64,000 bases of DNA, from NCBI GenBank assembly GCA_002280725.1, contig NCEM01000013.1:167492-231491 (forward strand), in the 5' to 3' direction. The first letter of the stretch is position 1. Every line of letters starts with the position of its first letter. A program made the translations under genes and the position numbers. This document shows, in pieces, positions 26,516 to 31,599 of this stretch. The DNA is from Alphaproteobacteria bacterium 32-64-14. Its GTDB lineage: Bacteria > Pseudomonadota > Alphaproteobacteria > Caulobacterales > Hyphomonadaceae. The notes beneath the pieces are model-generated. The model ran no database searches. It was not told where the DNA came from and saw nothing but the letters and a program-made list of their open reading frames with translations.

Positions 26516-27238
26516 ATGGGCAACACTGAACAACTGCCACTGCCATGGGCCGGATGGCCCGACGAAATCGGCTGCAACTTCGCGGCCGGTCATCTCGTAC
26601 AGAATCTCGGCCAGCCGCTCGTCGGCGGCGATGGGCGGCTGCATGCCGAGACATTCATGGCCGCTGCCGGTGTGCTGGCCGGATGGGGCGCGCAGCGTTC
26701 GCTCCTGGCGGACCCGAAGACGCTTTCGGGCGAGCCGCTTCAGCTGCACATGGTGACGCTGAAGGACGGGCGCGAGATGCTGTATGGCGACGCGATCAAC
26801 AATCGCCTGATGTCGAGCGATCCCGAGCAAGCCAGGTTCTGCGTGTGGAACAATCTGGCCGGCACGGCCATCGGCCACGGCCTTGCCGAAGCCGACCTGC
26901 CAGAGGTGGGCGAGCTGTTTCGTAGAGTGACGGAGCGCATGGGGGGCCCGCTCGAAGGCATGCCGACAACGCCGGATGATCACAGGCCCGCCGCGCCGGC
27001 CGGCGTGCTGCTGGCGCGTGTGATGCCTGTGGCTGTGGCATGCCTGACTGGCGAAATCAGCAAGATCACGAAGAGCCAAGGCTTTGCGGCATCTGAATCG
27101 TCGTATCAGGCCCTCACAGCGTGGACGGCGGCGAAGGTTCTCGCGCAGTGCTGTTCGGTGATGGCGCCCGGTCTCGCGCTGGTCATCGGCATGGAAAGCG
27201 CAATTTATGGATCGAAACTGCGCCCGCCTGGCGCCTAG
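26516..27238 (+). CDS. Conserved hypothetical protein
   Basis: 240 residues without a signal peptide. The second half is hydrophobic ('VLLARVMPVAVACLTGEISK', 'AKVLAQCCSVMAPGLALVIG'), so membrane contact is possible. Early part: 'FAAGHLVQNLGQPLVGGDGR' and 'LHAETFMAAAGVLAGWGAQR'. No known family. It is divergent from the MerR gene and could be its target, since the dyad lies between them. Its stop overlaps the stop of the convergent NTF2-like gene (CCTAGG). Confidence 0.6.
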   Translation: MGNTEQLPLPWAGWPDEIGCNFAAGHLVQNLGQPLVGGDGRLHAETFMAAAGVLAGWGAQRSLLADPKTLSGEPLQLHMVTLKDGREMLYGDAINNRLMSSDPEQARFCVWNNLAGTAIGHGLAEADLPEVGELFRRVTERMGGPLEGMPTTPDDHRPAAPAGVLLARVMPVAVACLTGEISKITKSQGFAASESSYQALTAWTAAKVLAQCCSVMAPGLALVIGMESAIYGSKLRPPGA

Positions 27239-27597
27239 GCGTATGCGGCGATTGACCTGACAACCTTGCCGCCCGCGCCAATCACAAACGTCTCGGCCAC
27301 CGTCTGTTGCCGATGATTGGTGTAGACGATGGTGAGCGCGTCTGACCCGGTGAGCACCTGATCGATCTCGAAATAGAGATCGCGCGCCTGCTCCAGCGCC
27401 GCGCCCCAATAGCTGCGCAGCGCCGTCTTGCCCGAGACGGAATCGATATCGCGGCCCGTCACCATGCGAATGCGCGGTGAGTGGAACACGACATCCTCGG
27501 CATAGTGGGCGAGGATGGCGTCAAGGTCGTGGTCGTTCCACGCCTTCACCCATTCACGGGCGAACTGCTGCGCGCTGTCTGCGTCCATCGCGGTCAC
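27235..27597 (-). CDS. NTF2-like (SnoaL-like) protein
   Basis: 120 residues with a cone-shaped NTF2 fold pattern: 'FAREWVKAWNDHDLDAILAH', 'YAEDVVFHSPRI', 'GKTALRSYWGAALEQARDLY', and a C-terminal strand 'AETFVIGAGGKVVRSIAAY'. Such proteins bind or convert small molecules or serve as partner domains. The GTG start lies immediately after the stop of the caspase-like gene, with GGAAAG in front, so the two are translationally coupled. ATG 27588 is an alternative start. Confidence 0.82.
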   Translation of the reverse strand: MTAMDADSAQQFAREWVKAWNDHDLDAILAHYAEDVVFHSPRIRMVTGRDIDSVSGKTALRSYWGAALEQARDLYFEIDQVLTGSDALTIVYTNHRQQTVAETFVIGAGGKVVRSIAAYA

Positions 27598-28317
27598 TCA
27601 CTTTCCCTGGAACGGGTCATCACGACAGCTGGCGTAGAGCACGAGGTTTGCCTGCCGCGCGGCGCCTGCAGTTGCGATCTCGTCGAGGGAGATGGCGTGA
27701 GTCGGCAGCCATTTCGAGTCGCGTTCGGGATAATCGCCCATCATCCAGTAGACCGTGCGCTTGCGCTGCAGGCCATGGCCGCCGACATAGATCAGCGAGA
27801 CATCGGCCGTGGCAGACGCCCGCGCGAACGCCGCCATCGCCGCGCGCGCGCCATCGATACCGGCATCGAGCGCGACCGTGGTTTCAAACCCTGCAGCCCG
27901 CAGCGCCTCAGGCACACGTCGCGCATCGAACTTCGCTCCGGGAAGCGAATAGGCGTCGGACTTCGAATAATCGGCATTGATCAGCACAAGCGCGCACCGG
28001 CTCTGCCCCTCGGCGCCAAGCTTCCATTTCGGATCGGGCAGCTTGCGCGGCATCTGGATGTTCTGCCACCCGCGGCTGTGCAGCGAATTGGCCAGCGCCA
28101 TCCGTGCGCCAAACGTCTCGATCGTCAGCGGCAATTCAGGCAGGACTTCGCACAAGGCAGAGGCAAACGGATTGCCGCCCAGCCTGTCGCGGTCGCTGGT
28201 AAGCCGTCCCGCCTGCCCCGCATAGTAGACAAGCGGCGCAGCACCGGCAGGCGCCGTCTGCGCCTGCGCAACAAGCGGCGTTGCAGCCAGTCCGGCAATG
28301 AAAACGCGGCGGTTCAT
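27598..28317 (-). CDS. Secreted caspase-like protein with apparently permuted domain order
   Basis: 239 residues, start ATG 28317. Signal peptide about 1-20 ('NRRVFIAGLAATPLVAQAQ'). Residues 105-235 are a caspase-type (C14) p20 core: 'CALVLINADYSKSDAYSLPG', 'ARRVPEALRAAGFETTVALD', catalytic His181 in 'VSLIYVGGHGLQ' and catalytic Cys231 in 'ANLVLYASCRDDPF'. The protein ends eight residues later, where a normal caspase continues. The expected continuation ('LIAYATAPG..ASDG..NSPFTAALL' type) appears instead at residues 29-65 as 'LVYYAGQAGRLTSDRDRLGG' and 'NPFASALCEVL'. This looks like a circular permutation. Coupled to the NTF2-like gene downstream. Confidence 0.72.
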   Translation of the reverse strand: MNRRVFIAGLAATPLVAQAQTAPAGAAPLVYYAGQAGRLTSDRDRLGGNPFASALCEVLPELPLTIETFGARMALANSLHSRGWQNIQMPRKLPDPKWKLGAEGQSRCALVLINADYSKSDAYSLPGAKFDARRVPEALRAAGFETTVALDAGIDGARAAMAAFARASATADVSLIYVGGHGLQRKRTVYWMMGDYPERDSKWLPTHAISLDEIATAGAARQANLVLYASCRDDPFQGK

Positions 28318-28366
28318 CCGGCCGAGGCTAGCTGCACCGCCGCGCAATTCCAACTGTTCAGTCTGA

Positions 28367-29927
28367 TCAGAACTTCAGCACTTTCACGTACCGGACCTGC
28401 GGCAGCTTCTCGATGGCGTCCAGCGTCTTGGCCGGAACGTCCTGGTCGATGCCGACGATGGCGATGGCGTCGCCCCCGGCAGCTTCGCGGCCGAGGTTGA
28501 ACGTCGCGATGTTGACCTTCGCATCGCCCAGCAGGCCGGCCATGGCGCCGATGAAACCCGGCTTGTCGGAGTTGTTGATGAACAGCATGTAGGGCTGGAA
28601 ATCCGCTTCCAGCGCCATGCCTTTCACTTCCACAACGCGCGGCTTGCCGCCGACGATGGCGCCGGCGACCGAGCGCCACTTGCCGTCGACCTTCACCTTG
28701 ATGCGCACCAGCGAGTCATAGATTGGGCTGGCGTCATTGGTGGATTCCTTAAGCGAGCCGCCGCGCTCCTGCAGGATAGCCGGCGCGGACACCATGTTCA
28801 CCTCGGCAAGGAACGGACGCAGCATACCCGCCAGCGCCGCGGAAGTGAGCGGCTTGCGGTTAAGCTGAGCGACCTGGCCTTCGTACTCGATCTCGACTTC
28901 AGCAAGGCCGCCGTCGGCAACCTGCCCGGCGAACTGTCCAAGCTTTTCGGCCAGCGCCACGAACGGCTTCAGCTTGGGCGCTTCTTCTGCCGTCACCGAA
29001 GGCGTGTTCAGCGCGTTGGAAACGGCGCCAGTCAGCAGATAATCCGCCATCTGTTCGGCGACCTGGAAGGCGACATTGTCCTGAGCTTCCACGGTGGAGG
29101 CGCCAAGGTGCGGCGTTGCGATGAAGTTGGGCGCGCCGAACAGCACGTTGGCTTTCGCGGGCTCTTCGAGGAACACGTCGAACGCGGCGGCGCCAATATG
29201 TCCGGACTCGAGGCCCGCGCGAACAGCAGCTTCGTCCGCCAGACCGCCACGGGCGCAGTTGATGAGGATCACGCCCTTCTTCGTCTTGGCGAGGTTTTCG
29301 GCCGACAGGATGTTCTTCGTCTGCTCGGTCAGCGGCGTGTGCAGCGTGATGACGTCCGCGCGGGCGAGCAGTTCCTCCAGCTCGACCTTCTCGACGCCGA
29401 GTTGTGTGGCGCGTTCCGCCGTCAGGAACGGATCATACGCGACCACCTTCATCTTGAGGCCCAACGCACGGTCGGCAACGATGGAACCGATATTGCCAGC
29501 GCCGATCAGGCCGAGCGTTTTCGCGTACAGCTCGATGCCGATGTAATCCTTCTTCGGCCATTCGCCCGCAATGGTGCGCTGGCTGGCCGAGGGAATCTGG
29601 CGGGCGGCAGAGAACATCATGGCGATGGCGTGCTCCGCCGTGGTGATGGCGTTGCCGAAAGGTGTGTTCATCACGATGACGCCCTTGGCGGTTGCGGCCT
29701 TCACATCGACGTTGTCGACGCCGATGCCAGCGCGGCCGATCACCTTCAGCTTTGTGCCCGCCCTTGCATGCCGAGCGGACAGCGAGGCCGTCATACTCGC
29801 CGATGATCTTGATCAACTCGTCCTTCTTGAGGCCGACCTTAAAATCGACCTCGATGCCGCGGTTCTTGAAGATATCGGCCGCGCCGGGCGCGAGATCGTC
29901 GGCGATCAGGACTTTCACTTTGGTCAT
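28367..29927 (-). pseudogene. serA: Phosphoglycerate dehydrogenase gene, frameshifted
   Basis: First enzyme of serine biosynthesis. The N-terminal 51 codons from ATG 29927 ('VLIADDLAPGAADIF', 'IGEYDGLAVRSA') are in one frame; the rest, from 'AGTKLKVIGRAGIGVDNVDV', is in another. Near 29762-29770 about 20 nt appear missing relative to relatives ('RSATKVTA.LEAA.LKV'). All later parts are intact: NAD fold 'GLIGAGNIGSIVADRA', catalytic 'NCARGGLADE' and His region 'ATPHLGASTVEAQDNVA', then ASB and ACT domains ending 'LPQVRYVKVLKF'. An ATG at 29794 could make a protein lacking the first 50 residues. Lies 3' of serC. Confidence 0.8.
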
Positions 29928-29990
29928 GGGGAGGTCTCCTGGAATTTCCGTGCGCCATCCGGCGCGTTGATTTCAAAAGTTGTGTCGCGG

Positions 29991-30287
29991 TCAGATATGG
30001 CCGCCCGTACCGTCACCGGCGGCCTTCCATTTTCTTGCGCGGTTGACCTGCATCTTGGCGTCGACCTGTTCGGACAGCTCCATGCCGAGAAGAGCTACGA
30101 GCCGATGCAACAGGATGACAACATCCGCCGCCTCCCTGCCCGCTTCGGCATGGTCGCCGGCGCGGAGGGCTTGCTCCAGTTCATCCATCTCGCCGCGTGC
30201 CCGCGCGACAAGCGCGGTAAGATCGCGCGCTTCGCCGAACGTAGCATCGCCCCATTCGCGGATGGTGTGGCTGGTTTCAGCGAACAT
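29991..30287 (-). CDS. MazG-like nucleotide pyrophosphohydrolase
   Basis: 98 residues from ATG 30287, 7 nt after GAGGAGG. All-alpha MazG-type pattern with metal-binding E-x-x-E and E-x-x-D: 'RARGEMDELEQALRAGDHAE' then 'AGREAADVVILLHRLVALL'. Such enzymes remove non-canonical or excess NTPs/dNTPs. It sits between serC and serA on the same strand with a palindromic repeat on its upstream side. Confidence 0.75.
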   Translation of the reverse strand: MFAETSHTIREWGDATFGEARDLTALVARARGEMDELEQALRAGDHAEAGREAADVVILLHRLVALLGMELSEQVDAKMQVNRARKWKAAGDGTGGHI

Positions 30288-30302
30288 ATCGCCCTCCTCG
30301 GT

Positions 30303-30422
30303 TGTCATCCCGGAAGCCCGAAGGGCTATCCGGGACCCATTGCGCCAGTACGACACTGGATGAATGGGTCCCGGCCCAATCTTATTCAAACAAGAATGGG
30401 CTTCGCTACGGCCGGGATGACA
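30303..30422. repeat. Intergenic palindrome, TCATCCCGG family
   Basis: Outer arms TGTCATCCCGG (30303-30313) and CCGGGATGACA (30412-30422), with nested stems (ATCCGGGACCCATT / GAATGGGTCCCGG). It lies between the serC stop and the MazG-like start and may reduce downstream transcription. Confidence 0.7.
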
Positions 30423-30423
30423 G

Positions 30424-31599
30424 CTAGTTGAGTTCCGCCACCGTCGTTTCAAAAGCCCAGTCGAGCCACGCCGTCAGCTTCTCGAGATCGGCCGCCTCCA
30501 CCGTCGCGCCGCACCAGATGCGCAGGCCCGGAGGGGCGGCCTTGTAGCCGCCTATGTCGTAGGCCGCGTTTTCCTTTTCCAGCGCCGCGACGAACTTCTT
30601 CACGAAGTCCTGCTGGCCCTTGTCGTCGAGCTTCGCAACGCGCGGATCAGTGATCGAAAGCGTGACGGAGGTGTTCGAGCGCGTCGCCTTGTCCGCCGCG
30701 AGGAATTCGACCCACGGGGCTTTCGCGACCCACGCTTCGAGTACAGCGAGGTTGGCGTTGGAGCGCGCGACAGTGGCGTCGACGCCGCCAAGGCCTTCGA
30801 CCCAGCCGAGCGCATCGAGATAGTCTTCGGTCGCCAGCATGGACGGCGTGTTGATCGTTTCGCCCTCGAAGAGGCCTTCGGTGACTTCACCGCCCTTGGC
30901 CATGCGGAAGAGTTTCGGCATCGGCCATTTCGGCGTGTAGGTTTTCAGCCGCTCGATCGCGCGGGGCGACAGGATCAGGATGCCGTGTGCGCCCTCGCCG
31001 CCCAGCACTTTCTGCCAGGAGTAGGTCAGCACATCGATCTTGCTCCACGGGATCGGCATCGCAAACACCGCCGAGGTCGCGTCGCAGAAGGTGAGGCCCT
31101 CGCGGTCATCCGCGATCCAGTCGCCGTTCGGCACTTTGACGCCAGACGTCGTGCCGTTCCACGTGAAGACAATATCCGCGTCCTTGCGGGCCTTCGACAG
31201 GTCAGGAAGTTTTCCGTAGGCCGCCTTGTGCGTGACGGCATCGACCTTGAGCTGCTTGGTGATGTCGGTCACCCAGTCTTCGCCAAACGATTCAAACGCG
31301 AACACATCGACCGGGCGCGCGCCCAGCATGGACCAGAAGGCCGCCTCGATGGCGCCCGTGTCGGAGCCCGGCATGATACCGATGCGATAATCGGCGGGAA
31401 TTTTGAGAATGGCGCGGGTCTTGTCGATCGCCAGCTTCAGGCGCGACTTGCCGAGCTTGGAGCGGTGCGACCGGCCCAGCGATTCCAGCTTGAGATTGTC
31501 GGGGCTCCAGCCTGGGCGCTTGGCGCAGGGGCCGGAAGAAAAGTGTGCCCTATCAGGCCTATTGGCAGGGCGCACTGCGGGTTTCGCAGCGGTAGACAT
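30424..31599 (-). CDS. serC: Phosphoserine aminotransferase
   Basis: Second step of serine biosynthesis, PLP-dependent: 3-phosphohydroxypyruvate to phosphoserine. 391 residues from ATG 31599. It belongs to the alphaproteobacterial/archaeal-like SerC type: '[15 protein letters not shown]', '[18 protein letters not shown]', '[17 protein letters not shown]' and the PLP lysine in '[16 protein letters not shown]'. It is the first gene of serC-mazG-like-serA. A hairpin leader (31610-31654) precedes it. Confidence 0.97.

Follow-up and report, generated by a model that had tools for sequence, protein, structure and literature searches.

A natural, likely exported, circularly permuted caspase homologue conserved across two alphaproteobacterial clades

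Caspase homologues of the Pfam family PF00656 (Peptidase_C14) are expected to carry a large, catalytic p20 segment followed by a small p10 segment. Here we describe a gene in which this order is reversed. It was found in a window of 64,000 nucleotides from Alphaproteobacteria bacterium 32-64-14 (Hyphomonadaceae; contig NCEM01000013.1, positions 167,492 to 231,491 of the forward strand), and positions below are those of the window. The gene lies on the minus strand at 27598..28317, starts with ATG and encodes 239 amino acids plus a stop. Its product is probably a caspase homologue that is circularly permuted in nature and likely to be exported, and we predict that it works as a cysteine protease with no p20-p10 linker to be cleaved. 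Together, sequence and predicted structure establish the permutation well, in support of the circular-permutation reading of an earlier note made from the sequence.

PF00656 is the only Pfam family matched in the open reading frame (ORF; residues 107-234, 45.4 bits against a cut-off of 21.4), and the match spans only positions 2-130 of the 233 in the profile. It falls in the p20 segment (residues 107-236, 27610..27999), which holds a catalytic-type His181 (27775..27777) within GGHGLQ and a catalytic-type Cys231 (27625..27627) within YASCRDDPF. Reading of the ORF confirmed that the two residues stand in the order given by the earlier note, with the stop codon eight residues past Cys231. The colinear p20-then-p10 order of PF00656 is not found; instead, the p10-like segment (residues 27-100, 28018..28239) is N-terminal, and residues 29-55 read LVYYAGQAGRLTSDRDRLGGNPFASAL. 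The two segments are connected by a short link (residues 101-106, 28000..28017) between the model strands at residues 99-100 and 107-113. The same gene has no p10 part downstream, because the caspase stop directly precedes the start codon of the next gene.

Profile-profile comparison was used as the main test of the N-terminal part, because a Pfam search with the parts re-joined in canonical order hardly raised the score. A profile of residues 27-104 from 103 family members (alignment A1) was compared with 45 caspase homologues of canonical order, taken from the family and class of the window. It aligned to canonical columns 164-229, right behind the p20 (columns 13-146), with a probability of 96.2, an E value of 2.1e-9 and a score of 56.9. 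The match is not due to chance, because 200 column-shuffled N-terminal profiles reached a maximum of only 23.0 (mean 12.6, standard deviation 2.5). When 385 genomes from the class were searched with a distant homologue, L003, its N-terminal part alone matched downstream of the p20 match in G235, G231, G141 and G454 (E 1.8e-4 to 8.6e-4). Both results agree with the earlier proposal that the N-terminal segment corresponds to the part that follows the cysteine in other caspases. A hidden Markov model (HMM) of the canonical p10, run in six frames on the window and 21 family loci, matched 15 of the 22 sources, all at the N-terminal part of the permuted ORFs. No p10 was found elsewhere in these sources, in a scan of limited sensitivity that missed the p10 of the window itself, which fell below the threshold used.

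Structure prediction, which the earlier note had named as a check, points in the same direction. The chain is predicted to fold as a complete caspase domain, with the new ends at the activation-cleavage site of caspases and the old ends joined by about six residues; model confidence is lower for residues 1-20. For two family members the best structural match, over ∼200 residues, was a circularly permuted caspase of engineered origin. In Foldseek, the alignment with JF1cpCasp2 (PDB 8vp4, 9c2y) ran along one chain and covered both subunits in the same order.

A search with the window protein yielded 272 homologues, of which the 120 listed have 216-264 amino acids. A search with L003, which is 41% identical, found 404, and the 120 listed there have 214-333 amino acids, all but three being shorter than 280. 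The window sequence and all 240 listed homologues were aligned (n = 241). All 241 have His181 and 240 have Cys231, the lone exception (P0124) having a different C-terminal end. In 233 of the 241 the C-terminus lies 5-10 residues past the Cys position, and all 103 members of A1 match PF00656 at E 1e-3. The ratio of nonsynonymous to synonymous substitution rates (dN/dS), estimated for nine pairs with relatives, was 0.067-0.471 for the N-terminal part and 0.099-0.352 for the p20 part, although synonymous sites approach saturation in the distant pairs. The pair with L006, which is one of the two closest relatives, gave 0.077 and 0.099, and both parts thus have a low dN/dS between close relatives.

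These data leave almost no room for a canonical caspase that was truncated after its catalytic Cys and bears an unrelated N-terminal extension. Such a protein would fit the Pfam results, as the Pfam match stops halfway through the domain and residues 1-104 of the window protein alone give no Pfam match. Conserved lengths, uniform C-terminal ends and low dN/dS rule out truncation or a pseudogene, and the p10 match of the N-terminal profile, the model match across both parts of a permuted caspase and, within its sensitivity, the six-frame scan argue the same way. The protein is permuted and not truncated, as the earlier note had held, and the homologues are full-length proteins with the same order. 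Some of the searches nevertheless gave weaker results, beginning with the lack of a Pfam match for the N-terminal part. When residues 29-104 were re-joined after the p20, the PF00656 match did extend to position 193, and the gain was only ∼3 bits (45.3 bits versus 42.1 for the p20 alone). The search in permuted order proposed in the earlier note therefore lengthened the match and hardly raised its score, and Pfam alone is weak evidence for permutation. A sequence search of the PDB with the single window protein gave only weak matches (best E 0.39). The Foldseek template modelling score to JF1cpCasp2 was moderate, at 0.68, with a root-mean-square deviation of 4.4, and many natural chains ranked lower in the structure search consist of a large subunit only. 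MALT1, a paracaspase whose single chain includes both parts, therefore makes a fairer structural comparison.

Besides the His-Cys dyad, the S1 pocket of the permuted family bears on its activity. Asp42 in the p10-like segment (28192..28194) is kept in 241/241 sequences and aligns with an Asp of canonical p10 segments; presumably it is the counterpart of Glu500 in MALT1. The S1 pocket of MALT1 comprises Asp365, Asp462 and Glu500 (PMC4357240). MALT1 was the best PDB sequence match by profile and shares the first of these acids. Asp131 in helix 1 of the p20 (27925..27927), kept in 103/103 members of A1, aligns with the MALT1 Asp located 97 residues ahead of the Asp of the DMC motif, which is the spacing of Asp365 and Asp462 and the basis for numbering it 365. 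MALT1 differs in having the canonical order and in that the equivalent of its Asp462 is lost in the permuted family. Two residues before the Cys, all 45 canonical proteins have Asp, whereas the permuted family has Ala in 127 sequences, Gly in 112, Asp in 1 and Gln in 1 (n = 241), and the Cys motif is CRD(N/D)P. In the metacaspase TbMCA2, for which Cys92, Asp95, Ser156 and Asp211 are named, Asp211 stands two before the catalytic Cys213, as read off the numbering (PMC4357240). The permuted protein resembles orthocaspases in having a prokaryotic p20 with the HC dyad. Of the two S1-pocket Asp residues, equivalents of TbMCA2 Asp95 and Asp211, it keeps the one in helix 1 and lacks the one before the Cys; that Asp131 is the Asp95 equivalent we infer from its position in the helix. 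As the dyad and two acids are kept and the third acid is lost, a changed P1 preference is predicted, and on this sequence basis the preference is probably altered.

The lost S1 Asp could also mean that peptidase activity is weak or absent. In that case the permuted caspase fold would serve as a binding or scaffold protein that has kept the dyad and lost cleavage, which we regard as unlikely, though deserving of real weight. The replacement of the Asp before the Cys by Ala or Gly in 239/241 sequences favours such a loss, and dyad-substituted homologues are frequent in Alphaproteobacteria (PMC3501461). However, pseudo-orthocaspases lose both dyad residues (PMC6426788), whereas in the permuted family both are retained almost without exception, and two more acids of S1 type show no variation within the sequence sets studied.

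The usual means of control in caspases is the cutting of a link that joins the large and small subunits. In the permuted family this link is absent from the sequence, because the chain's own ends occupy that place. Since no such linker exists, the single chain would be active or activatable as such, like engineered permuted caspases, and in place of zymogen cleavage it would be controlled through its export, its expression, a ligand or the access of substrates. Sequence and analogy suggest a protease of caspase type that needs no processing, is likely exported and has a changed S1 pocket. The main caution for a single-chain model comes from the algal type III metacaspases, which show calcium dependence and processing.

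The original report of type III metacaspases is said to be that of Choi and Berges in 2013, which is reportedly also reference 40 of a 2015 review. That review places type III in 'algae and bacteria', citing its reference 40 (PMC4357240), and papers of 2017, 2019 and 2021 confine it to algae. Type III enzymes are defined by the p10-then-p20 order and occur in algae derived from secondary endosymbiosis (PMC5756287, PMC6426788, PMC8455989); examples are GtMC2 of Guillardia and PtMCA-IIIc of Phaeodactylum. The 2019 survey reports type III as absent from prokaryotes (PMC6426788). Type III enzymes share with the permuted family the p10 N-terminal to the p20 and an Asp that is conserved near the start of the p10 part. 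They are calcium-dependent, and PtMCA-IIIc cuts after Arg. The permuted protein differs in its size of ∼240 amino acids, its likely signal peptide and the absence of the metacaspase S1 Asp before the Cys. We did not file the permuted family as type III because, in a comparison with published descriptions of the algal enzymes, this Asp is missing, and because homologues of its own class align with each of its two parts. It is very improbable that the family belongs to the algal type III metacaspases or was acquired from them by horizontal transfer. The common order of parts speaks for it; the Ala or Gly in place of the S1 Asp211 of TbMCA2-type metacaspases, the CRD(N/D)P motif, and the alignment of the N-terminal part and p20 with homologues of the window's own family and class speak against it. 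No bacterial permuted caspase was described in the titles and abstract openings among the literature matches listed. The p10-before-p20 order is new for bacteria, not for all life, and the earlier claim that no such secreted permuted protein had been described holds to that extent, as the order itself was known from algae.

Two other groups of proteins are close to the permuted family. Reverse caspase-3 and -6 are reportedly engineered permuted caspases (Srinivasula, 1998). A permuted caspase-2 (cpCasp2) was engineered as a constitutively active single chain (PMC7760212). Like the permuted family, JF1cpCasp2 and cpCasp2 have the small subunit before the large one in one chain that ends at the inter-subunit site; they derive from human caspases, whereas the family described here is natural and bacterial, differs in its S1 pocket and has a likely signal peptide. 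The second group comprises alphaproteobacterial orthocaspases and other canonical PF00656 proteins, whose p20 and p10-like sequences are homologous to those of the permuted family and several of which, among those read, also begin with a signal-like segment. They differ in having the p20 first, with 22-34 residues from the Cys to the p10 (42/45 measured), and in the Asp two before the Cys.

The N-terminal start, MNRRVFIAGLAATPLVAQAQ, is signal-peptide-like and has a twin-arginine-like motif. Residues 1-26 (28240..28317; MNRRVFIAGLAATPLVAQA, followed by Q) are a likely signal peptide, judged from the sequence and from rule-based counts in the family: a hydrophobic 12-mer precedes the p10 part in 212/241 sequences and an AxA-like site is found in 236/241. 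Export, which the earlier note had also assumed, is likely from these N-terminal features. Several points count against export. The hydrophobicity rule is failed by 29/241 sequences, signal peptides were judged by simple rules on the N-terminal sequence only, and a twin-arginine-like motif ([RK]Rx[FL]) occurs in only 102/241, so that the twin-arginine translocation (Tat) system is uncertain as the export route. The neighbouring genes, serA and a SnoaL_2-domain gene, do not point to a function in death or defence, and a PADLOC search for anti-phage defence with the caspase and two neighbours gave no match.

The SnoaL_2-domain gene (27235..27597, minus strand) adjoins the caspase gene without a gap, and serA, encoding phosphoglycerate dehydrogenase (28367..29794, minus strand), lies upstream. 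Both are conserved neighbours: of 14 loci from the window's family, 12 have serA upstream and 13 have the SnoaL_2 gene downstream, each on the caspase strand, with the SnoaL_2 gene within 60 bases in twelve, although the upstream sequence of L009 is incomplete and L017 has neither neighbour within its stretch. No terminator-like site was listed on the minus strand in a scan of 27150-30500, and co-transcription of the caspase with its neighbours is plausible. The neighbouring genes name no function for the caspase. In the window, serA is split across two frames (28367-29927, minus strand), with a main ORF of 475 amino acids and the N-terminal part in another frame, while the relative L001 has a single ORF of 558 amino acids; this is either a real frameshift or an assembly error. 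A 240-amino-acid ORF on the plus strand (26516-27238), without a Pfam match, is conserved in several relatives, where it also lies next to the caspase region.

A full-length permuted copy is present in 14/105 genomes of the window's bacterial family (loci L005-L018), and 12 of the 14 are among the 15 genomes of its own genus. In the family to which the L003 genome belongs, 5/103 genomes have a copy. Among the matches listed from wider samples, in which scoring was limited to the top candidates of each genome, copies were found in 1/385 genomes of the class, 1/398 of the phylum and 3/397 of the order of L003. The named records are metagenome-assembled genomes (MAGs) of Hyphomonadaceae (L001, L002), a MAG labelled Devosia (L003) and three proteins from Rhodomicrobium MAGs. 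An unrooted p20 tree was built from 28 permuted rows, chosen from those in hand, and 35 canonical ones (10 near-identical of the 45 were dropped). A branch with support 100/99 separates all permuted rows from the canonical ones, and the permuted rows fall into two groups. The permuted caspase is conserved across two alphaproteobacterial clades. The L003 genome (G844) has eight caspase-domain matches, canonical and permuted, whereas the permuted caspase is the single C14 match found in the window's genome.

Candidate ORFs came from matches that covered both parts in permuted order (G036, G428, G443, G464, G269, G071, G053, and G692, G447 and G624, partial) and from two p20 matches in one ORF (G040, G060). 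Eight longer loci were read (L101-L108), leaving aside the places in G428, G269, G447 and G624. Five of them, from genomes of the window's family (L101-L104, L107), encode tandem p20-p10-p20-p10 proteins. L105, L106 and L108, from other genomes of the class or phylum, were rejected as permuted: they are single canonical caspases with no upstream p10 by HMM. The tandem proteins have a signal-like start with RR, and their second p20, in which FAGYG replaces the GHG motif and DCGR replaces DACR, looks catalytically dead. A tandem protein is the kind of intermediate that could give a p10-p20 protein by loss of both ends. The tandem p20 units, however, score higher with the canonical than with the permuted p20 profile, which gives no support to the tandem proteins as ancestors of the family. 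We offer only tentatively, and with rather more doubt than conviction, the fuller history that the permuted exported caspases of Alphaproteobacteria arose once, independently of algae, by permutation at the activation-cleavage site, that they did so via duplication through tandem caspases such as still exist in the window's bacterial family, that they work as single chains without zymogen processing, and that their S1 pocket was re-cut for a new specificity.

The rearrangement seen in this family is the same as that engineered for constitutively active caspases, which makes the natural use and safe-keeping of such an enzyme directly testable. The order with p10 before p20, as in type III enzymes of algae, may have had more than one origin, and surveys relying on a metacaspase p10 profile may have overlooked bacterial permuted members. 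With its altered S1 pocket, the permuted family is a candidate for a new cleavage specificity.
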